This document shows positions 16,709 through 42,625 of a stretch of 64,000 bases of DNA, piece by piece. Below the pieces are notes generated by a model, which ran no database searches, was not told the origin of the DNA, and saw nothing but the letters and a program-made list of their open reading frames with translations. The position numbers and the translations under genes were made by a program. Position 1 is the first letter of the stretch. Every line of letters begins with the position of its first letter. The stretch spans positions 1,426,001 through 1,490,000 of the forward strand of contig NZ_CP043925.1 of NCBI RefSeq assembly GCF_009914335.1, written 5' to 3'. Source of the DNA: Proteus columbae. GTDB lineage: Bacteria; Pseudomonadota; Gammaproteobacteria; Enterobacterales; Enterobacteriaceae.

Positions 16709-17104
16709 GGTGATGTAGTACATTAATGATAGAGTAGATACTGGTTATCTTAAAAAAATAACAGTATCTACTTTTTTATTCATGTTCTTAAATTAAAATA
16801 ATGAGATAGGTAAAATAGATAATTATTTTTATCTTATAATTATTTTCTAATTTGACGGGTGAAAAGTTTTTTTAAAATAAAGATGAAAATAATTTGCTAT
16901 AAAATGAATTATATGACTTAATAGCGCCACTGGTTTGGAAGTACAGACCTATTTATGTTAGTGCAGTTTTAAGTAGTTCACCGTTTAGCGTTATCCATGA
17001 TACCTCTTCGTTGCGAATTCCTTCAAATAGTGACCATAAGTAAAAATCCGAAATCAAACCGCAAACAATGCCTTATGGCAAAATAATTAATTAAAGGAAA
17101 TCTT
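16709..17104 (+). promoter_or_regulatory. Cold-shock gene leader with cold-box-like sequence
   Basis: The region in front of the cold-shock gene contains GGAAGTACAGACC at 16937-16949. This resembles the cold box (TGACGTACAGA) at the 5' end of cspA-family mRNAs, about 160 nt before the start codon. That is the usual length of a cspA leader, which refolds with temperature. No gene is seen in the stretch. AAAGGAA precedes the ATG. Confidence 0.6.
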
Positions 17105-17317
17105 ATGTCTAATACAATGACTGGTACAGTAAAATGGTTTAACGATGATAAAGGTTTTGGCTTTATCACTCCTAAAGACGGTAGCAAAGACGTATTCGTA
17201 CACTTTTCAGCGATCCAAAGCGATAGCTTCAAATCTCTGAAAGAAGGCCAAGAAGTTTCATTTTCTATCGAAAATGGCGCTAAAGGACCAGCAGCAGCGA
17301 ACGTAATCGCTCTGTAA
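17105..17317 (+). CDS. CspA-family cold-shock protein
   Basis: The 70-residue protein is a complete OB-fold cold-shock domain with both RNA-binding motifs: GFGFITP (RNP1, KGFGFIT) and DVFVHFSAI (RNP2). It acts as an RNA chaperone that melts mRNA secondary structure. Length and sequence are closest to CspA of E. coli, and the long leader with a cold-box-like motif points the same way. A strong terminator follows. Confidence 0.95.
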
Positions 17318-17767
17318 TTTACTGTATATATTGCTTAATGCAATATGGATACAAGTAAGATCTAAAAAACCTCACTTCGGTGGGGTTTTTTTATATCAAT
17401 TTCTAGTATTATTTAAATTTGAAGTATATTTATTAAAGCGTATAAAAAATAGTTTTATTAAAGTTATGTAAGTATTTAATGTAAATTATTTAAAATTCTA
17501 TAAAGTTATTTACTTTAATGCCTAATAATTTTTACAGATAAATAAATTAATGGATAAATTAATTCTTATAATGGCAAAATAAAGGCATTAAGACATTGCC
17601 TTTTCAATCAAAAGAAAGAAAAAAACTTTATTAGAATAAAAAATATCAGATAAATCATAAAAATAATTTAAGATAAAAATTAAATTAATATTTAGTGACT
17701 TATCTTAAACAATTGCTGTCTAATTTAATGTGGCTTAAATGCTTTTTAGTTCCTAAAGGACAAACTT
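17318..17767. other. Intergenic region after csp
   Basis: After the csp terminator this 450-bp AT-rich stretch holds no recognisable gene. It should contain the promoter of the acyltransferase gene, whose RBS AAAGGA lies at 17756-17761. Confidence 0.4.
17364..17392 (+). terminator. Intrinsic terminator of csp gene
   Basis: AAAACCTCAC, loop TTCG, GTGGGGTTTT and a T run form a stable tetraloop hairpin 47 bp after the stop. Confidence 0.88.
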
Positions 17768-18709: not shown

Positions 18710-18814
18710 TATATAAAAAAAGACCAACACATGATGTGTTGGTCACAGTAAATACTGGAAGCAATGTGAGCAATGTCGTTGTGAAAAACCAAGTAAAACA
18801 CTCAACTATTCACA
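18710..18814 (-). ncRNA. ryhB: RyhB-like sRNA, copy 1
   Basis: The minus strand encodes CGACATTGCTCACATTGCTT, identical to the core of E. coli RyhB that pairs with sodB and other targets. It is followed by the TCCAGTATT stretch. The element ends in a perfect GACCAACACA/TGTGTTGGTC stem and a U run (T's at 18721-18714 on the minus strand). A promoter with TTGACA and TATCTT at 17-bp spacing lies upstream and overlaps a Fur box. RyhB represses iron-using proteins when iron is scarce. A second copy lies at 22109-22206. Confidence 0.9.
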
Positions 18815-22108: not shown

Positions 22109-22206
22109 AAAAAAAAGACCAACGCTAGGAGAGTTGGTCAATAAATACTAGAAGCAATGTGAGCAATGTCGTTGTGAGAAACTGAGTAAAATACTCAACT
22201 ATTCAC
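22109..22206 (-). ncRNA. RyhB-like sRNA, copy 2
   Basis: The minus strand carries the same CGACATTGCTCACATTGCTT core as copy 1, followed by a diverged terminator stem (GACCAACTCTC and its complement) and a U run ending near 22109. The sequences upstream of the core are similar but not identical, so this is a paralogue rather than a recent perfect duplication. It has its own Fur-controlled promoter. The pair resembles the RyhB-1/RyhB-2 situation known in Salmonella. Confidence 0.9.
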
Positions 22207-30812: not shown

Positions 30813-31988
30813 TTATGCAATCTCACAATGTGGCACTTCAACCCATTGTACATGGTTTTCTGTATAAATCTTGGTTGACTCTGCATCACTGTGAGCCATT
30901 CGAGCTTGAGGATCAAAACCGCGTTGTTTAAACATAAAGGCTGCCAATGCTCTTATTTCATGAAAGGTAGGCCTTTCATCTAAAGGCAAATGACTGGCAA
31001 CACCTACTTGATCACGCAACGCTGAAAATGCACGGCTAAGGTAATCTGGTGCAACTTGTGTTGGATGATTCACTTCTTTACACACCTTATTTGGGATACG
31101 AGTAGGTAGTCTATGCACAATATAAGGGCTTGCTACATTGTCACGGCTATTATCGATGATTTCCTTAAGTGCTTTGCCTATTGGGATCGCAATGTGAGAT
31201 GCCTCTTTATGTTGCACTTTTTGTCTGTGAATATAAATCATCCCGTATATTCCATTTAAGGGTTCCTCATACCATAAACATCCACATATGCCTTCTTTGG
31301 GGGCTTTGATATTGTATTTTATTCGTGATACTTCTAGCCTTGCTTGTGTTGTTTGTAACGCGAGATCCATTGCTGTTCTTAACCAAGGTTCTGCAGATGC
31401 TCGAATTTTAAGAAAATCATCATAAGATAATCTTCTACGTTTTTTCCCATCGACTCTTTTCATTTTCTTACGTTCAGCAGGGTTATCGAACATAAGAGAT
31501 TCATCCATTGCGTAACTAAAAATTTTCTTTAGAAAACTGACCTTACGATTTTGTACATTAGCAGAGGCATCGGCATGATATTCATTAATATAGCCATTTA
31601 CATGTTCCAGTGAGATTTCATTCGCGGGGATATCTTTAAAAAAGATCTTAATTCTTTCTAAGTCATTAACCCAGTTACTAAGTGTACTGTCTGATGGTTT
31701 CTCATCATTAGTGATCCGCAAAAATAACTTATCTAAATGTTCTGAAAGAGGGAGAGACTCTCCATATTGTCCTCCCGAGTCAATAATTAATGAGTTAACA
31801 GAAACAGATTTTTCTGGTCGCATAATATTGTTGTATTCTCTGGCTATTGCGATAGCCTTTGCTTTATCAGCACCAATGCATTTTCGAATACCATTAGTCA
31901 GTGTTAAGCGATACTGTTTTTTGGATGAATCGTAATACAGAAAGTCAGGTAGATGCCTAAATTCCTTTTTTCTTGGTCTACTGGCCAT
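30813..31988 (-). CDS. Prophage tyrosine integrase
   Basis: The 391-residue protein has an N-terminal arm-binding and core-binding region, and a C-terminal catalytic domain. The key residues seen are the arginine in LALQTTQARLEVSR, the HEIRAL box, HSDAESTKIYTENH containing the terminal histidine and nucleophile tyrosine. It is complete, unlike the relic at 25407. The small gene directly upstream on the same strand is the likely excisionase. It lies 2.6 kb from the tRNA-Pro att fragment. The three residues RPRKKEFRHLPDFLYYD region matches DNA-arm-binding starts of related integrases. Confidence 0.93.
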   Translation of the reverse strand: MASRPRKKEFRHLPDFLYYDSSKKQYRLTLTNGIRKCIGADKAKAIAIAREYNNIMRPEKSVSVNSLIIDSGGQYGESLPLSEHLDKLFLRITNDEKPSDSTLSNWVNDLERIKIFFKDIPANEISLEHVNGYINEYHADASANVQNRKVSFLKKIFSYAMDESLMFDNPAERKKMKRVDGKKRRRLSYDDFLKIRASAEPWLRTAMDLALQTTQARLEVSRIKYNIKAPKEGICGCLWYEEPLNGIYGMIYIHRQKVQHKEASHIAIPIGKALKEIIDNSRDNVASPYIVHRLPTRIPNKVCKEVNHPTQVAPDYLSRAFSALRDQVGVASHLPLDERPTFHEIRALAAFMFKQRGFDPQARMAHSDAESTKIYTENHVQWVEVPHCEIA

Positions 31989-31989
31989 A

Positions 31990-32202
31990 TCACGAAGCCC
32001 TTATTAACTCATCGACACATGAAGAAATAACGGACTCGATACCCCAACGTTCGGATGAATATATCCAAACAGAACAATCAACGATTTTGCCTTTTAATAA
32101 GCCAGCTTCTACCCATTTTTTTATGGTTCTATTATCTGGAATAGAACCTATTTCAAATTCTCGTTTAGCCCACGCACTAGCTTTCATCAGTTTTCCGCTC
32201 AT
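31990..32202 (-). CDS. Excisionase-like DNA-binding protein
   Basis: This 70-residue basic protein has a predicted winged helix (KASAWAKREFEIGSIPDNRTIKKW, then GKIVDCSVWIYSS). Size, position immediately upstream of the integrase, and the TAT-spaced arrangement fit a phage excisionase (Xis). Its start codon lies within the recurring leader motif: GAGGCAAGACCA ends just before AAATG. A decayed copy lies upstream of the integrase relic. Confidence 0.75.
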   Translation of the reverse strand: MSGKLMKASAWAKREFEIGSIPDNRTIKKWVEAGLLKGKIVDCSVWIYSSERWGIESVISSCVDELIRAS

Positions 32203-32374
32203 TTTGGTCTTGCCTCATCATTAATAAAATAAGTCGGTCTGCTGTATCACAGGAGTGTTTGATTTCAGCGTCAGTGCATGGTCTATTTCTTACACTGAAC
32301 GCTAACCGACCTAATTTAATATCAAAACTTGTTAATAATTGGTTCCCTGGTTTCCAAGGTGTTAATAATTTCAT
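32177..32374 (-). CDS. Hypothetical phage early protein
   Basis: ATG 32374 (MKLLTPWKPGNQLLTSFDIK) gives 65 residues. An in-frame ATG 45 bp upstream is possible. Its stop overlaps the excisionase start by 26 bp, so the two are translated from one transcript. It ends QDQNERKTDES, which is acidic and polar. Family unknown. Confidence 0.55.
   Translation of the reverse strand: MKLLTPWKPGNQLLTSFDIKLGRLAFSVRNRPCTDAEIKHSCDTADRLILLMMRQDQNERKTDES
32203..32216 (-). promoter_or_regulatory. Leader motif copy (GAGGCAAGACCA) at excisionase start
   Basis: Reads GAGGCAAGACCAAA directly before ATG 32202. Related to the repeated leader of several prophage genes, complementary to the 5' part of the antisense RNA candidate at 35875-35990. 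Confidence 0.6.
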
Positions 32375-32449: not shown

Positions 32450-32617
32450 ACTTTTTACCCGAATAATTCCCTCCACTGGATAGCACTCTGCAATTTTCCC
32501 TTTGATCGCGAGTAATTCCTTATCAATTAAACAATTTTGTTCATTGGGATAAATATAACCGTAGGGTTCAAACTGACAATTTACCGAACTACATATCAAA
32601 AGGAATAAACCAAACAT
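32447..32617 (-). CDS. DUF1482-like small secreted phage protein
   Basis: ATG 32617 overlaps the stop of the preceding gene by one base and opens 56 residues (starts MFGLFLLICSSVNCQFEPYG, ends GIIRVKS). A short hydrophobic signal, four cysteines and the ECYPVEGIIR ending match the DUF1482 family found in lambdoid phages. Membrane or periplasmic localisation is expected. Function is unknown. Confidence 0.65.
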   Translation of the reverse strand: MFGLFLLICSSVNCQFEPYGYIYPNEQNCLIDKELLAIKGKIAECYPVEGIIRVKS

Positions 32618-32787
32618 TATTGTTCACTCCTTTGTTGCTCAGCGGGAGTAGGCTGAAGTTCAATTTTGACGTGCGCTGGAAAATCGTATGAAACATGGCA
32701 ACGTCTATCTGTTGAAACAAAGCCATGTGTACCATCAGGTAATGTGATCTTTACGGCTTGGTCTTTTTGTTGAGAGTGTCTAAGCAT
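32617..32787 (-). CDS. Hypothetical phage early protein
   Basis: ATG 32787 (MLRHSQQKDQAVKITLPDG) gives 56 residues, preceded by the perfect leader AAGAGGCAAGACCA. An earlier in-frame start would add nine residues through the leader itself. The sequence holds a small beta-rich core (HGFVSTDRRCHVSYDF) and a glutamine-rich tail. Family unknown. Confidence 0.6.
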   Translation of the reverse strand: MLRHSQQKDQAVKITLPDGTHGFVSTDRRCHVSYDFPAHVKIELQPTPAEQQRSEQ

Positions 32788-32801
32788 TGGTCTTGCCTCT
32801 T
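32788..32801 (-). promoter_or_regulatory. Perfect leader motif copy
   Basis: AAGAGGCAAGACCA followed directly by ATG (32787). All 17 nt including ATG are complementary to CATTGGTCTTGCCTCTT in the antisense RNA candidate. Confidence 0.7.
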
Positions 32802-33041: not shown

Positions 33042-33542
33042 TTAACGAACCATTAATGAACGTTCACCAACTTCAAGATGTGCTCCGGGAATTTCAAGGC
33101 CATTTTCAATAGCTTCTTTAATGCTTTTTTTATCTGGCGCGGTGATGGTTTGAACATCAACCAACTCATCTGGCAACAAAGCTTCATTGTCGATAATGAC
33201 TCGAACAACACCAGCTCTAGCTGTGAATGTATTTTTTGTTGTTTTTAATTTATCTAATCCTGAAGCCAATAAGCAGTTAAGAGCATATTTCTTTAGGTTT
33301 TTAGCTTGGTTTTCGAATGATTTTTTACGATCAGATAAACGTTTAGATTCCTCATCCAGTGTTTTAGCTTGACCTTCGATATTGCGAACGTGGTGCATAA
33401 TTGCATCCAATTTATCACCTAACTCGCCCTCGATACCTTCCAACGTATCTGCGATATCTTCAGGAGAGAATTCTCCTGTTTCAACGAGTTGTTGTAATTT
33501 TTCGTAATTGGTCGCCAGTGCGATAGCAGTAGTATTGGTCAT
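33042..33542 (-). CDS. Siphovirus Gp157-like protein
   Basis: The 166-residue protein is mainly coiled-coil (residues 30-110) with a short beta-rich C-terminus (KSIKEAIENGLEIPGAHLE), matching the Gp157 family. Relatives are linked to phage recombination modules and to resistance against restriction in some hosts. Its ATG overlaps the stop of the upstream annealing-protein gene (TAATG) and the nearby AAGAGGCAATCTAATG is a partial version of the leader motif. Confidence 0.85.
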   Translation of the reverse strand: MTNTTAIALATNYEKLQQLVETGEFSPEDIADTLEGIEGELGDKLDAIMHHVRNIEGQAKTLDEESKRLSDRKKSFENQAKNLKKYALNCLLASGLDKLKTTKNTFTARAGVVRVIIDNEALLPDELVDVQTITAPDKKSIKEAIENGLEIPGAHLEVGERSLMVR

Positions 33543-35506
33543 TAGATTGCCTCTTCTTTATGTTTCAGTTGGTCTAAACACTCTTTTTCGATTTGGTTTA
33601 ATCGACGTAAACGGCCGGACAAATATTTCTCATAATCGTTGTCACGACGCTCTTGAGCTGATTTGATATGCGCAGAAATTTCGCGCGTTAATGTGGATGC
33701 AATGCCTCGCAATTCATTCTCAGTAACAGCACTACGCATAACTTCCGTATGTTTAGTAAATTTCTCGTCTAATTCTTTGCGAATACGTGTGATATCTTCC
33801 GCTTTTTCACTCGCGTTTTTGATTTCAAACTCAAGCTTATTACTCGCTAAGTATTCAGGGTTATCATGCATACCCATAAAGACATCAGAGCTAAAGCCAA
33901 GCATTGATAGGGCTTTTTTGATTGCATCAGTTAGTGATTTTTTAATAGCTTCACCGTCAACCTTAATGCCATAGTTAGTTTGATAGCGGTATGGTGTTGC
34001 ACCATAACTTTCAAACTCACCGCGGGTTTCACATTCGATGATGTACCAAAAACGGATCTTAATTGAGTGGTTTTGTTCGCAGAATAACGCTCCATCACCA
34101 TCACGTAAAAAACGGGTTGCAACTTGTTTATTACGCTCATCAAGAACTGGTTCTACAAGAGGCTTTCCATCAATAAATTTTTCTTCAAGGACTTCATAAC
34201 CCCAGCCTTCACCAATAGGGCCGAATATTTCAGTCGCACGCATAAACATGTAGGTGCTGTTTATGCTAGTCCCTATAAATCCCATGCCTTCTAATGGCTT
34301 AGTAAAACGAGGGTCTGTACGTTGTACTCTTTTCCAAATACTTAGGTTATTAGCATCACTCGCGTTAAGAACTTCATCAATAACACTGGCACGTTGCTCA
34401 AAATTATCGTGTGGTACTGATGGTGTTTCTGGTTCTTTAGTTTTTTCAGTTTGCTCAATCACTTGAGCTGTTTCTGCCTTAGGCGCTACTTCTTGCTTTT
34501 TACGCGAACGTTTAGGCTTAGTTTCTTTCTCAACTGTATTTTCTTTGGATACTAAAGAGGCATTATCTGTTTGAGTTAACTTAGTAGTAATTTCTTCTTT
34601 TTTAGTGTTGTTAGATTTGCTAATGCCCAAATGCAGATCAATCAACTCTTTTCGTGCATTAGGATTATCTAATAACTCAGGCTGTTTTTTACTTTCAGCT
34701 ATTAATGCAAAAATCTTTTCACGAGGTATATCTAAGATGCCAGCTGTTGTGCGTAAATCCATTGACCAGCGTTTCCATGCTGTGTTGTCATCATCTATCA
34801 GCTCTTTGGCTTTCTTTACTTGAGAGGGTAGAACATTATTAGGATCAAAATCATCTAACAGTGCTAAGGCGATTTCAGTATCTATAGTTGTGTAGTTACG
34901 CTTGATAGAAGATATTTCTTCTTGTGGTTGCTCAGGTTCTTCTGTCAGCCAGCTTTCACCTAGTGATTTAGCTTCTTCAACGGTGACATCTTCATTAGCA
35001 AACTCATAGATAGCCTGTGCTATTTCCATCGTTTGTTCAGCATCCATCAAAGATAATTTTGTTATTTCAGCAAGGCCTGTGGCGATATTACGAATTTTTG
35101 GATCTTCTGTACCCGCAAGATATTTCAATGTAAAAGAGAACTCTTTGTTTGTTATTTGAGTCTTTCCAAATAACAGCAGGCTGGCGATACGAGGTTTTGT
35201 GGCTAGTTTTTTGAACTCTCTATATTCGATAGGTTTCCATTGAGTACCGTCATACTCATTTTCAACAGCAAATTTTTCATCGAAAGCATCTAAAGTAGGG
35301 CATGCAGAACCGTCAAGATATTCGCTAATTAACGGCTCATCAGTATTAAAGTTATCCATAGCTTCTGGATATGCTTCAGACAATTTCACTACTGCAGTTG
35401 CTGTTGCCAGCTTTGCATTAGCAGTGCTTAACGCTATGGCTAAAGGTACAGCACCGTTGGTACGAGCCTCGGTCGTAGGCTCAAATACACAGATAAAAGT
35501 TTTCAT
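33542..35506 (-). CDS. Fused RecE-N-like / Rad52-type annealing protein
   Basis: The 654-residue protein has three parts. Residues 1-190 (MKTFICVFEPTTEARTN start, IEYREFKKLATKPRIASLLL) resemble the N-terminal region of phage RecE (exonuclease VIII). Residues 190-380 are an acidic, low-complexity linker. Residues 385-560 resemble single-strand annealing proteins of the Rad52 type: EGWGYEVLEE, then the signature EAIKKSLTDAIKKALSMLGF followed by SSDVFMG. The PD-(D/E)XK nuclease domain of RecE is absent. It probably performs annealing recombination with Gp157 in the early operon. The leader motif precedes its start. Confidence 0.75.
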   Translation of the reverse strand: MKTFICVFEPTTEARTNGAVPLAIALSTANAKLATATAVVKLSEAYPEAMDNFNTDEPLISEYLDGSACPTLDAFDEKFAVENEYDGTQWKPIEYREFKKLATKPRIASLLLFGKTQITNKEFSFTLKYLAGTEDPKIRNIATGLAEITKLSLMDAEQTMEIAQAIYEFANEDVTVEEAKSLGESWLTEEPEQPQEEISSIKRNYTTIDTEIALALLDDFDPNNVLPSQVKKAKELIDDDNTAWKRWSMDLRTTAGILDIPREKIFALIAESKKQPELLDNPNARKELIDLHLGISKSNNTKKEEITTKLTQTDNASLVSKENTVEKETKPKRSRKKQEVAPKAETAQVIEQTEKTKEPETPSVPHDNFEQRASVIDEVLNASDANNLSIWKRVQRTDPRFTKPLEGMGFIGTSINSTYMFMRATEIFGPIGEGWGYEVLEEKFIDGKPLVEPVLDERNKQVATRFLRDGDGALFCEQNHSIKIRFWYIIECETRGEFESYGATPYRYQTNYGIKVDGEAIKKSLTDAIKKALSMLGFSSDVFMGMHDNPEYLASNKLEFEIKNASEKAEDITRIRKELDEKFTKHTEVMRSAVTENELRGIASTLTREISAHIKSAQERRDNDYEKYLSGRLRRLNQIEKECLDQLKHKEEAI

Positions 35507-35520
35507 TGGTCTTGCCTCTT
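35507..35520 (-). promoter_or_regulatory. Perfect leader motif copy
   Basis: AAGAGGCAAGACCA directly before ATG 35506. All 17 nt including ATG match the complement of the antisense RNA candidate. Confidence 0.7.
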
Positions 35521-35851
35521 AATAAGGGATTTCTTCGTCAGTTTTCGAAATGGGTTTGCCTTCCAAGCAAAGTAACATTTGGATTTGATCTTCTAACAAG
35601 CTTGATTTCACTTGGGCATCAGAAAGAATTTTTTCTTGCTCATGGCGTAGAAAATCAATTTCAGCGTGAACGAGATCAGTTTGAGTTGGCTCTTTAAAAG
35701 GAACATCAACAGTGTGTTCTGCAATAACGAAACCTAGTCCATCATTAGGATCTGCTTTAAATGCGTAGGCGTTATATTGGTAAGAACCATCGAACTGTTT
35801 TTGAGCGTGAATATAGAGTGTGACGGTTAGGCTTTCAGGTTGTGCTTTCAT
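35519..35851 (-). CDS. Hypothetical phage early protein
   Basis: The ATG at 35851 follows AAGGAG. The 110-residue protein starts MKAQPESLTVTLYIHAQKQF and shows a beta-rich N-terminus and a helical acidic C-terminus. It is the first long gene of the leftward operon. Its start region overlaps, on the other strand, the predicted promoter of the antisense RNA candidate. Family unknown. Confidence 0.65.
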   Translation of the reverse strand: MKAQPESLTVTLYIHAQKQFDGSYQYNAYAFKADPNDGLGFVIAEHTVDVPFKEPTQTDLVHAEIDFLRHEQEKILSDAQVKSSLLEDQIQMLLCLEGKPISKTDEEIPY

Positions 35852-35874
35852 AGCAACTCCTTTAAAATAACTGC

Positions 35875-35990
35875 GATCAGTGATTTATCATTGGTCTTGC
35901 CTCTTCTAGCGTTTGGTCGCGCTAGTAGAACTCTCGGTTAGCTTTGGTCGGCGACCCGAGGTAAAGGAACCCACTTCGGTGGGTTTTTTT
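35875..35990 (+). ncRNA. Candidate C4-type antisense RNA
   Basis: The plus strand has a plausible promoter (TTGTGC at 35840-35845, 17 bp, TAAAAT at 35863-35868). Next comes CATTGGTCTTGCCTCTT at 35889-35905, then hairpin 1 (CTAGCG/CGCTAG, 35906-35925), hairpin 2 (CTCGG/CCGAG, 35933-35960), and an intrinsic terminator (ACCCAC-TTCG-GTGGGT plus seven T's). The 5' segment is perfectly complementary to the RBS and start codon of three prophage genes. Layout and function match C4 antisense RNAs of P1/P7 and P4-type immunity RNA as I recall them; this is not verified against Rfam. Confidence 0.7.
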
Positions 35991-36082
35991 ACATCTGTAA
36001 CTTATTGCTCGTCTTTCCGAGCTGTCATGGTCATGTCTTTGTAGCTTTGGTCTGAAATATTCCCTAGTGCTGAATAAGAAGG

Positions 36083-36113
36083 TCTGAACACTTACCTAAA
36101 CACTTGCTGTGTT
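36083..36113 (+). repeat. Repeat copy 1 (CTGAACAC...CCTAAA...TTGCTGTGT)
   Basis: A sequence of about 31 bp that recurs at 41662-41693 with roughly three quarters identity, including CTGAACAC and TTGCTGTGT. Role unknown; the first copy lies in the leftward operon promoter region. Confidence 0.4.
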
Positions 36114-36165
36114 GTTTTTGTTGTTAGTAAATCTACAAGTTAAAATTGAATATTGCAAGTTTATT

Positions 36166-36207
36166 TTACAAATAATTCTTGTAATTATGTGTGTAAAAAA
36201 TTACAAG
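36166..36207 (-). promoter_or_regulatory. Left operator cluster
   Basis: TTACAA-N7-TTGTAA lies at 36166-36184. The overlapping CTTGTAATT...AATTACAAG (9-bp arms, 36178-36207) is a further inverted repeat. The same half-sites occur in the cI-cro intergenic region, so these are probably CI/Cro operators controlling the leftward operon. Confidence 0.6.
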
Positions 36208-36252
36208 AGCTATTAAGCTCCTGTAATTTAATTTGAATTTTATGAAAGGATT

Positions 36253-36945
36253 TTAAGCGTAACGCTTGTATGTTCTAGATTGACTGAGGAGGACTTTACC
36301 AAAAATGAAGAATTGGTCTTCATCTTCTTTACCAATATCCCAATCTCGGTAATTGGGATTATCAGAGATAACGGTTAATTTATTCTTTATCATTTGAAGT
36401 CTTTTAATGTGCAATGTTTGACCAAAAATGAAAACGTAAATGCCATCACCATCAAAATAATCTATGTGAACATCTATGAAAACTTGGTCTCCTGGTTCAA
36501 TAGTATTTTGCATACTATCACCAACCACAGTGATCATTTTTATATTAGCACTAGGTCTGTTGCCAAATAAACGGAGTGCTTCATCAGATGTATATTCAAT
36601 AGCTCTAATTGTTTCAATAAATTCATTTTTATTAATAATGCCAGGGCCTGCGCTTGCTTCTATATCAAGTAGTTCAACAAGATAAGAATCACTCTTACGG
36701 ACAACTGGCTTATTCATTACTTCAGTTGAAACATCACTCATAAAAAACCAATGTTCTGGATATCCTGAGATACTAGACAATGCTGTTAAATTATTACCCC
36801 TGGGTGCTGTTTTACCGCTCACCCAAAATTGCACTGATTGAGGGCTAACACCGAGCCTACGAGCTAATTCTGATTGAGACCAGTTTCGCTCGGTTAGTAT
36901 TTGGCTAATACGTGTAGCTGATACTTCATTCGGATTCTTTTTCAT
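36253..36945 (-). CDS. CI-like phage repressor (LexA/S24 type)
   Basis: The 230-residue protein has an N-terminal helix-turn-helix (NWSQSELARRLGVSPQSVQFW). It continues with a cleavage-type linker (IEASAGPGIIN with an Ala-Gly pair) and an S24 peptidase-like domain with catalytic serine in VVGDSMQNTI and lysine in LHIKRLQ. It should maintain lysogeny and be inactivated through RecA-stimulated self-cleavage, as for other LexA-like repressors. Cro-like and CII-like genes lie divergently, in the standard lambdoid order. Confidence 0.92.
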   Translation of the reverse strand: MKKNPNEVSATRISQILTERNWSQSELARRLGVSPQSVQFWVSGKTAPRGNNLTALSSISGYPEHWFFMSDVSTEVMNKPVVRKSDSYLVELLDIEASAGPGIINKNEFIETIRAIEYTSDEALRLFGNRPSANIKMITVVGDSMQNTIEPGDQVFIDVHIDYFDGDGIYVFIFGQTLHIKRLQMIKNKLTVISDNPNYRDWDIGKEDEDQFFIFGKVLLSQSRTYKRYA

Positions 36946-37802: not shown

Positions 37803-37816
37803 AAGAGGCAAGACCA
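37803..37816 (+). promoter_or_regulatory. Perfect leader motif copy
   Basis: AAGAGGCAAGACCA directly before ATG 37817. It is the third perfect 17-nt match (with ATG) to the antisense RNA candidate. Confidence 0.7.
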
Positions 37817-38041
37817 ATGATTAGATCAACTGAAAAAATTACATACCGTAATGGGTTTATGCTGAATGATAAACCTGCCCATATATCAGAAATTAGGGAT
37901 ATCTTTGAGGGTAGACGTGTTATTGCGTTGTTAGTTTGGGAACAGTATGAAAAGCAAAAACAAAAATTACTGTCGAAGAATTTAACCCCTGAGCAGTACC
38001 AAAATGCTTGCCGTAATATTGCTAAAGCACTGGGGGTGTAA
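37817..38041 (+). CDS. Hypothetical phage early protein
   Basis: The 74-residue protein begins MIRSTEKITYRNGFMLNDK and is amphipathic and basic, with a helical C-terminus (LTPEQYQNACRNIAKALGV). It lies between the YdaT-like gene and the replication gene, is preceded by the recurring leader motif and almost abuts the next start. No family is recognised. Confidence 0.65.
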   Translation: MIRSTEKITYRNGFMLNDKPAHISEIRDIFEGRRVIALLVWEQYEKQKQKLLSKNLTPEQYQNACRNIAKALGV

Positions 38042-40281: not shown

Positions 40282-40325
40282 ATAAGTTAATTAGGGCTCG
40301 ACCAAGTTATTAAATAAAACATTAT

Positions 40326-40335
40326 AGGCAAGACC
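40326..40335 (+). promoter_or_regulatory. Leader motif copy (imperfect)
   Basis: AGGCAAGACC directly before ATG 40336; one base shorter than the perfect leader and diverged at its 5' side. Confidence 0.5.
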
Positions 40336-40512
40336 ATGACAATTAAAGACTCTCTTACTCACGAATCTCTCGTTCGTGATAATCACCTCATATTACCCGA
40401 CGATGGGTTAGACCATACACAGTGTCATATTGATCGCCTCCATGCATCAGCAAGAGCGAGAATAAAAGCACCTTATCAACCTAAGGTTAAGCCACAAAAA
40501 TTGACGAGGTAA
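40336..40512 (+). CDS. Small phage early protein
   Basis: ATG 40336 opens a 58-residue protein (MTIKDSLTHESLVRDNHL, ending VKPQKLTR) that is clearly protein-like with a basic C-terminus. It follows the helicase gene by 54 bp, with a version of the repeated leader sequence. Family unknown. Confidence 0.6.
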   Translation: MTIKDSLTHESLVRDNHLILPDDGLDHTQCHIDRLHASARARIKAPYQPKVKPQKLTR

Positions 40513-41708: not shown

Positions 41709-42302
41709 ATGGCACAGCATAGCTTTATCAAAATGCCTAACGATACTCTTGTACCGGCTAACCCTGTTACGAGAGATTTTCTGCATTCAAAAATCAAGTG
41801 TGGTGATGTGCTTTCAGCTAATTTTAAGAAAGCTCGTAACCCTCGATTTCATCGTAAATACTTCGCATTACTCAACTTAGGCTATGAATATTGGGAACCA
41901 GTTGGCGGTACCATTTCACCAGAAGAAAAAGAGCTCGTGCGTGGTTATATCACATTCCTTTCATGTTACACGGATAATGCTGACGCGCTCTTATCAGCAT
42001 CCGATATCTATCTAGAAGAAGTCGCACAAAATCGTGCACAAAATATCTCAGCAACAAAATCATTTGATGCTTTTCGCTATTGGGTTGTAGAACAAGCCGG
42101 TTATTACGATACGTTTGAAATGCCTGACGGTAGTTTACGTCGTGTCGCTAAATCAATCAGCTTTGCAAATATGGATGACTTAGCATTTAGCGAACTCTAC
42201 AAAGCCACACTCGATGTGCTTTGGAATTTTATCCTTCGTCAGCAATTCCCCACTCAAAAAGCTGTAGAAAATACAGTATCTCAATTATTAAGTTTCACAT
42301 AG
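41709..42302 (+). CDS. DUF1367 protein (NinB-neighbour type)
   Basis: The 197-residue protein starts MAQHSFIKMPNDTLVPANP and contains RNPRFHRKYFALLNLGYEYW, the DUF1367 signature. These proteins are common in the nin-like region of lambdoid phages, next to Ref-type and Q genes as here. Their molecular role is unknown. The leader motif follows its stop and belongs to the next gene. Confidence 0.85.
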   Translation: MAQHSFIKMPNDTLVPANPVTRDFLHSKIKCGDVLSANFKKARNPRFHRKYFALLNLGYEYWEPVGGTISPEEKELVRGYITFLSCYTDNADALLSASDIYLEEVAQNRAQNISATKSFDAFRYWVVEQAGYYDTFEMPDGSLRRVAKSISFANMDDLAFSELYKATLDVLWNFILRQQFPTQKAVENTVSQLLSFT

Positions 42303-42313
42303 AGGTAAGACCA
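42301..42313 (+). promoter_or_regulatory. Leader motif copy (one mismatch)
   Basis: AGAGGTAAGACCA before ATG 42314. The C-to-T change would give a G-U pair with the antisense RNA candidate, so pairing is nearly kept. Confidence 0.6.
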
Positions 42314-42625
42314 ATGATCAAATCAAAGACCAAAGAAGAAAGACAGTGGCTATCAGATGTAGCGGAACTGGGTTGTATTTGTTGCCGCAATATGGGGCTT
42401 GGGGCAAGTAGAGCGGAAATACACCATGTTAGAACAGGGCAGGGAATGGCACAGCGAGCTAGTCATACAGAGGTTTTACCGCTATGCCCACCTCATCATA
42501 GAGCATGTTATGAAACCGGTTTTCATGCTTCACCTAAATCATGGCAAGAAATTCATGGTAGTGAGATTGAGTTATTAGAACAGACTAAGCAAGAAGTAAT
42601 GGAGTTACGAGCATGTCGAGTATAA
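42314..42625 (+). CDS. Ref-type RecA-dependent nuclease
   Basis: ATG 42314 (MIKSKTKEERQWLSDVAELG) gives 103 residues. The zinc-binding HNH-like features are CICC near residue 22, EIHHV near residue 37 and the PLCPPHHRACYETGFH stretch. This matches the recombination-enhancement (Ref) nuclease of P1, a RecA-dependent HNH nuclease, in its conserved C-terminal domain. It overlaps the antiterminator by 13 bp. Confidence 0.85.
   Translation: MIKSKTKEERQWLSDVAELGCICCRNMGLGASRAEIHHVRTGQGMAQRASHTEVLPLCPPHHRACYETGFHASPKSWQEIHGSEIELLEQTKQEVMELRACRV

Follow-up and report, generated by a model that had tools for sequence, protein, structure and literature searches.

A conserved plus-strand RNA of a lambdoid prophage in Proteus columbae with complementarity to a leader shared by several early genes

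The window analysed here, a stretch of 64,000 nucleotides of Proteus columbae DNA, contains a lambdoid prophage with the following landmarks.

30813-31988, minus strand: integrase gene.
35519-35851, minus strand: phrog_2479 gene, between the RNA described below and the exonuclease gene.
36118-36215, minus strand: presumed OL/pL region, with ACAAG/CTTGT half-sites at 36135, 36178 and 36203.
36253-36945, minus strand: CI-like repressor gene.
37051, plus strand: Cro.
37344, plus strand: CII.

The rightward arm continues after the phrog_2465 gene with O-like, DnaB-like, NinB, HNH and Q genes. The pL promoter (TTGCAA-17-TAGATT) was placed by eye and is absent from the list of the promoter scan. The gene of a small RNA lies on the plus strand between the phrog_2479 gene and CI, opposite the presumed leftward (pL) transcript, which would cross it in the antisense orientation. 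The elements of this RNA gene are as follows.

35840-35868, plus strand: putative RNA promoter TTGTGC-17 bp-TAAAAT, overlapping the start of the 35519-35851 (minus) gene.
35875-35990, plus strand: predicted antisense RNA of approximately 115 nt; the covariance model R1 scores 146.9 bits in the window, the sequence of which is among those it was trained on.
35875-35896, plus strand: hairpin SL0, whose 3' arm UCAUUGGUC includes the anti-start half of the antisense segment.
35889-35905, plus strand: antisense segment CATTGGTCTTGCCTCTT, the exact complement of AAGAGGCAAGACCAATG.
35897-35905, plus strand: toehold UUGCCUCUU, mostly unpaired, complementary to the ribosome-binding site AAGAGGCAA and including the covarying base.
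35906-35925, plus strand: hairpin SL1, hexaloop UUGGUC at 35913-35918.
35933-35960, plus strand: hairpin SL2, hexaloop UUGGUC at 35944-35949.
35961-35992, plus strand: intrinsic terminator hairpin and U run, seen in folds and by covariation.

The RNA at 35875-35990 (plus) thus has four hairpins and a conserved -10 box. The preliminary description had placed here a promoter-like pair with 17-bp spacing, two stems and a terminator. The pair is present and its -10 box is conserved (TAAAAT, TATATT, TATAAT or TATACT in 22 representatives, read by eye); the -35 box TTGTGC is weak, and the pair at 35840-35868 is absent from the list of the consensus promoter scan, which contains another, best-scoring plus-strand pair at 35862-35891 whose start would fall within the antisense segment. 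The RNA start point probably lies near 35875. The stems and the terminator were seen in the folds, whereas the fourth, 5' hairpin and the repetition of UUGGUC had been missed in that description. The terminator at 35961-35992 is absent from the list of the terminator scan, probably because its T run pairs inside the long stem. Both ends of the gene, unlisted by the consensus scans, rest on conservation and folding. A repeat of the SL2 loop motif, TAGCTTTGGTC, is found downstream of the terminator at 36042-36052 (plus).

The single fold of 35871-35992 gave a z-score of -5.9. The window sequence and seven relatives adopted the same four hairpins in single folds (z-scores -5.6 to -6.6), and SL0, which conceals the CAUUGGUC half of the antisense segment, was found in all eight; the toehold UCU is able to pair with AGA below SL1. 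Among 52 distinct sequences, 96.5% of the cells were paired and 24 of 38 pairs had changes on both sides, in an alignment fitted to the R1 model, which favours structure; slid registers of the same alignment, used for comparison, gave 43–50% of cells paired. None of 500 shuffles was as good as the RNA alignment. Changes on both sides were observed in 7/7 pairs of SL1 and 7/8 pairs of SL2 (helices 3-4). G-U cells outnumbered A-C cells 285 to 3 over the whole RNA and 148 to 1 in SL0, which indicates in each case that the plus strand is the strand that folds. The stems of SL1 and SL2 vary freely and their UUGGUC loops are usually kept: TTGGTC was the SL1 loop in 40/52 distinct sequences (the others mostly one or two changes off) and the SL2 loop in 49/52. 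Of the 48 distinct aligned RNAs from the exonuclease loci, 47 share an identical antisense segment, L027 being the exception. The RNA therefore shows a conserved fold with an exposed pairing stretch, as looked for in a trans-acting sRNA. Two viral contigs (L304 and L360) carry RNA variants with GTGGTT in both hairpin loops and the anti-Shine-Dalgarno sequence TTTCCTAG or TTTCCTAA; one leader of L304 (ACTAGGAAAGACTAACATG) fits the altered flank of its RNA.

Six genes of the window are preceded by the leader GAGGCAAGACCA-AUG or close variants, the ribosome-binding site of which is complementary to the open stretch of the RNA. These six leaders and one partial leader are listed below.

32203-32218, minus strand: leader ATGAGGCAAGACCAAA of gene 31990-32202 (70 aa), which adjoins the integrase gene and is an excisionase gene by position only.
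32788-32801, minus strand: leader of gene 32617-32787, phrog_2482 (family of unknown function).
33543-33555, minus strand: partial leader AAGAGGCAATCTA of gene 33042-33542, Mu Gam-like / Gp157, matching the toehold only.
35507-35520, minus strand: leader of the exonuclease gene 33542-35506, phrog_2489.
37803-37816, plus strand: leader of gene 37817-38041, phrog_2465, directly 3' of cII.
40322-40335, plus strand: leader TTATAGGCAAGACC of gene 40336-40512, a weak phrog_4183 relative.
42300-42313, plus strand: leader TAGAGGTAAGACCA of gene 42314-42625, HNH / RecA-dependent nuclease family.

Exact copies of the 17-mer AAGAGGCAAGACCAATG lie at 32785-32801 (minus), 35504-35520 (minus) and 37803-37819 (plus), and its complement at 35889-35905; a search of the window thus recovered all three copies claimed earlier for the genes at 32787, 35506 and 37817, with the start codon included in the complementarity. 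The near matches proposed before 32202, 40336 (TATAGGCAAGACCATG) and 42314 and the weaker one before 33542 (AAGAGGCAA only) were also as described, and the search found further matches to the 17-mer at 42300 (two mismatches) and 32202 (three mismatches). Shuffles of the window gave a mean of 0.15 matches, and in the whole genome all four exact copies lie within the prophage. Between 30813 and 64000, GGnAAGACC stands no more than 4 nt from the ATG of six ORFs that are 50 aa or longer, and 200 dinucleotide shuffles gave none. When the 5' 60 nt of the RNA were paired with the 137 ORFs of the window that have ATG starts, using an energy without an accessibility term, the leaders of 37817, 32787, 42314 and 35506 took ranks 1–4, and those of 33542, 32202 and 40336 ranked 8th, 10th and 28th. 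The 70-aa product of 31990-32202 had no PHROG match.

The leader was also found before the corresponding genes of related loci. In 97 loci it precedes the exonuclease gene in 97, the phrog_2465 gene in 94, the HNH gene in 81, the phrog_2482 gene in 80 and the gene of a 112-aa protein in 33, and also excisionase-position genes of three protein clusters (41, 15 and 13 loci) that blastp did not join; as many as 4 mismatches in 14 were accepted for these counts, which contain some chance ORFs. With chance ORFs included, 95 of the 97 loci have 4–8 leader-bearing ORFs. The leader core is 93–100% identical except at one variable position, and most upstream bases are 27–68% identical; the contexts were chosen by the motif, so the high core identity is partly selection and not an independent measure. 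In Pectobacterium phage ZF40 and Stenotrophomonas phage BUCT708, the leader precedes genes 1595-1810 and 2665-2889, respectively, both of which match PHROG excisionases; the HNH gene of either phage is without the leader, though the RNA is present.

To follow the RNA itself, exonuclease relatives were collected from 16 bacterial loci (Proteus, Providencia, Xenorhabdus, Photorhabdus and Morganella) and the best 80 of 102 viral contigs. With a simple profile made from the window RNA, the RNA was found in 95 of these 96 loci, the single miss being a contig that ends 345 bases upstream of the query gene (L057); near-copies are frequent in this set, which holds 48 distinct RNAs with flanks. The R1 model found the RNA in 86 of 87 further loci, and the contig of the single miss (L358) ends 601 bases upstream of the query gene. 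One locus left out of this count (L303) gave no RNA match though 816 bases are present upstream. The RNA ranges from Proteus to phages ZF40 (R1, 59.6 bits) and BUCT708 (58.2 bits); it was not found in Aaphi23. Class-level searches with R1 (369 genomes) and with a phrog_2465 profile each matched the window's own genome only. An order-level R1 search of 394 genomes gave 55 matches at E up to 0.01, of which three exceeded 80 bits (the window's own genome, G378 and G177) and the remainder scored 22–36 bits, many spanning the terminator alone. A seed pattern was present in 4 of 198 genomes of the family. A blastn search of 35840-36100 against phages gave, among the best 40 of 90 records, short matches only (30–41 bases); those listed lie in the terminator, in the pL-leader element at 35997-36031 (Vibrio phages) and, in one case, across the toehold and SL1 (H1, E 0.9). 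In a reverse check that started from the leader pattern, the RNA was found in the same stretch for 7 of 66 new loci among the matches listed; most of the stretches retrieved were short, and the check is therefore uninformative on whether the RNA is absent elsewhere. The frames after the leader were mostly of known families, as judged by eye, with likely chance matches such as L508, L521, L540 and L560.

The leader has the form GAGGCAAGACC in ZF40 and the enterics among the collected exonuclease loci and GAGGAAAGACC in BUCT708 and its relatives, and in the RNA of the BUCT708 clade UUUCC replaces UUGCC. In 140 distinct loci, 618 of 629 leaders form a Watson-Crick pair with the RNA at the variable base, and 626 of 629 pair when wobble is counted (RNA base and leader base G-C 395, T-A 223, G-T wobble 8, G-A 2 and T-C 1); the 629 are strict leaders of ORFs of at least 30 aa, with leaders overlapping the RNA removed. 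A looser count, which allows one mismatch and includes RNA-overlapping leaders and chance ORFs, gave 916 Watson-Crick pairs among 1070. A scan of viral contigs in which this base was left free yielded at least 120 stretches, many overlapping the first set. Of the 115 new loci analysed, 58 had G as the RNA base, 56 had T and one, a repeat without leaders, had A; the leaders listed gave G-C 157, T-A 164 and others 7 (Watson-Crick 321/328); at least L386, L403, L448 and L484 look like chance matches. The flanking positions covary with the leaders only modestly: a phage's own RNA matches 3.36 of 5 and 3.02 of 4 flank positions, and the RNAs of other phages match 2.55 and 2.73.

The four gene families common to both clades switch together. 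Over all 181 loci and families with at least three leaders, the counts between clades were 101 C and 5 T versus 59 A for the exonuclease family, 99 C versus 63 A for the phrog_2465 family, 51 C versus 58 A and 1 C for the 40336 family, and 38 C versus 54 A for one excisionase family. Families private to a clade carry the base of that clade, with T for C in two cases. The same correspondence is seen in two further enteric genomes, one having a T-type RNA and three leaders with A (G777) and another a G-type RNA, four leaders with C and one with T (G775). In exonuclease trees of 55 and 74 rows, all T-type phages fall in one clade with one G-to-T switch. The many matching leaders are therefore not independent events and represent one historical switch at five or more sites. 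Complementary changes in an RNA and its unlinked targets, which are looked for in a trans-acting sRNA, are thus found here, with one switch on the tree.

The single switch would also fit an explanation in which the shared leader is a strong or protein-controlled ribosome-binding site, the copies of which evolve in concert; the RNA, having another function, would match only through the position of its gene opposite one leader copy on the pL strand. The strand opposite the antisense segment (35905-35889, minus) is itself a leader with an ATG, encoding MINH* in the window and, in 12 loci of Morganella type, joined in frame with the phrog_2479 gene (123 aa), and short ORFs lie opposite the antisense segment in several A-type phages; a change of the leader copies would consequently alter the RNA for free. 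However, in 44 of the 140 distinct loci a start codon 0–3 nt from GACC is missing on the opposite strand, and there 176 of 177 leaders still match and the remaining one wobbles. Moreover, both loops of the RNA repeat UUGGUC, which is complementary to the leader core, while the stems vary freely. We therefore consider concerted leaders with an incidental RNA to be an improbable explanation.

A second possibility is that the RNA acts in cis only, pairing with the fully complementary pL leader and controlling the pL operon, with the other leaders as minor targets or a sponge. The RNA sits in the presumed 5' region of the pL transcript, its complementarity to the pL leader spans its whole length, and isrB, which is considered below, is similarly arranged. 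This possibility leaves unexplained the base-matched leaders of the rightward genes (37817, 40336 and 42314) and of the clade-specific genes, and an action confined to the pL transcript is in our judgement unlikely.

The presumed pL leader contains a hairpin, TGACAGCTCGGAAAGACGAGC, at 36007-36027 (minus), which we would guess to be a possible antitermination element. Similar elements were found in ZF40, L016, L092, L296 and G777, and three in BUCT708, and many short blastn matches to Vibrio phages fall at 35997-36031; the pattern was not found in G378, L022 and G775. The same hairpin (GGAAAGAC, 36007-36027) was considered as a decoy for the RNA and was rejected as a leader copy, because it retains A in G-type phages.

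The RNA had been proposed to be of C4 type, a design that it resembles in general terms as a hairpinned small phage RNA complementary to ribosome-binding-site regions and located in the immunity region. The Rfam C4 model (RF01695) gave no match in 35840-36080 of the window at E up to 10, in a search that found the C4 of P1 at 68.8 bits, and it gave no match at its gathering threshold in ZF40 and BUCT708. Conversely, R1 had no match in the P1 stretches searched, immI included. Gene order and targets also differ. By Rfam the two RNAs are unlike in sequence and in fold. C4 of P1 represses translation by pairing near a ribosome-binding site, with the target sites a2 and b2 annotated, but its annotation places it and its target icd-ant in one mRNA, and it acts on one operon, versus six predicted start sites on two arms here. 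The window RNA ends in a terminator hairpin of its own, and the leaders belong to separate start sites on both strands; no target of recognised family in the window is an antirepressor, and several targets are of unknown function. Membership in the C4 family is extremely improbable; as a kind of mechanism, C4 is still close.

The nearest Rfam family is isrB (RF01386), which scored 33.0 bits in the window against a cut-off of 35, and 30 bits in a stricter genome search; R1 in turn scored 29.9 bits in SPN3UB and 29.6 bits in HK225. The isrB RNA, an sRNA of the Gifsy-1 and Gifsy-2 prophages with relatives in SPN3UB and HK225, adjoins a recE-type exonuclease gene on the strand opposite to the leftward operon; isrB-1 is placed between sbcA and STM1010, on the opposite strand, in the available part of PMC2515195. 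The window RNA likewise lies on the side of the recE-type gene and antisense to the leftward early operon, with phrog_2479 intervening. Both RNAs have a hairpin 2 with the loop ..CUUUGGUCGG and a UUCG-type terminator, whereas isrB lacks the 17-nt antisense segment. As SPN3UB and HK225 show no shared leader and no standout target, isrB was rejected as an RNA of a leader regulon. With a score just below the cut-off, a corresponding genomic position and a common hairpin 2, the two RNAs are probably distant kin. Only the cro gene of SPN3UB (L167 8361-8597, minus) starts with GACCGACCAATG, which is complementary to the conserved isrB loop UUGGUCGG, and may be a target of isrB. According to the available parts of the isrB literature, isrB is associated with ProQ and Hfq (PMC5391140, PMC2515195), is likely to take part in maintaining lysogeny (PMC5391140) and appears to be expressed in a Gifsy-2 lysogen of strain 4/74 (PMC7067206), and no target is named in those parts of PMC5391140 and PMC7067206.

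VpdS of phage VP882 is, in the accessible part of PMC12197685, a multi-target RNA that alters the levels of several host and phage mRNAs, is bound by Hfq and promotes phage replication, and a shared start-site leader is not mentioned there. The svsR RNA was set apart by description alone, being located at the cI 3' end in the portion of PMC12803456 seen. Weak Rfam matches to rsmX, istR and Spy779816 were far below thresholds and were taken as chance. Outside the prophage, the window holds two copies of RyhB above the Rfam threshold at 18715-18785 (minus) and 22110-22178 (minus), approximately 3.4 kb apart; a cspA thermoregulator lies at 16929-17394 (plus; 256 bits). Bacterial trans-acting sRNAs of the GcvB and RyhB type each act on several mRNAs by pairing near ribosome-binding sites. 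The targets in the window differ from theirs in that they share a near-identical leader before unrelated phage genes, in the manner of an operator at the RNA level.

Across these phages, we observe a conserved plus-strand fold, an open anti-Shine-Dalgarno stretch, exact or near-exact complementarity with the leader and matching base changes. The conserved fold and the covariation of RNA and leaders across unrelated genes lend strong comparative support to the original proposal of an antisense RNA whose regulon comprises many genes spread over both arms. On these comparisons, 35875-35990 (plus) is very probably a phage sRNA that pairs in trans with the shared initiation leader of several early genes of both arms and blocks ribosomes. 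As the blocked region would comprise the ribosome-binding site and the start codon, translational repression of this early regulon is implied. The RNA would be made in the lysogen, and its toehold UUGCCUCUU would pair first with AAGAGGCAA; GACCAAUG would then open SL0, giving up to 17 bp across the ribosome-binding site and start codon. The exonuclease, the excisionase-position, phrog_2465 and other early products would thereby be held low, and the UUGGUC loops may contribute further pairing by kissing GACCAA. The block would be lifted by induction of pL, the transcript of which would traverse the RNA gene on the opposite strand. A lysogeny switch layered on CI, as suggested in the preliminary description, is plausible from the position and the targets. 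We propose more tentatively, as a possibility somewhat short of an even chance, an RNA-level immunity beside CI, in which unrelated early genes of both arms would have acquired a portable translational operator (GAGGnAAGACCA-AUG) that is read by a single dedicated antisense RNA, this RNA and the pL transcript crossing its gene would be mutually exclusive (a double-negative switch), and C-type and A-type phages would be heteroimmune at the RNA level.

In the parts of the literature available, most phage antisense RNAs (sar, OOP, aQ and C4) have a single gene or operon as their target; VpdS, with several targets, is an exception. Searches of open-access literature gave no description of a phage RNA that reaches many phage genes through one start-site leader common to them. 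Judged from sequence, the RNA of this prophage appears to bring several distinct start sites under joint control through a leader placed before unrelated genes, excisionase-position genes of three clusters included. Such a leader system would correspond, at the level of translation, to repressor operators, and the C/A switch that occurs naturally between the clades is a ready-made compensatory test of it. The RNA may also bear on the role of the isrB-type RNAs that occupy the same place in other lambdoid prophages. It appears to be a further, little-known layer in the control of viral dormancy, in which one RNA probably holds several early genes down together.
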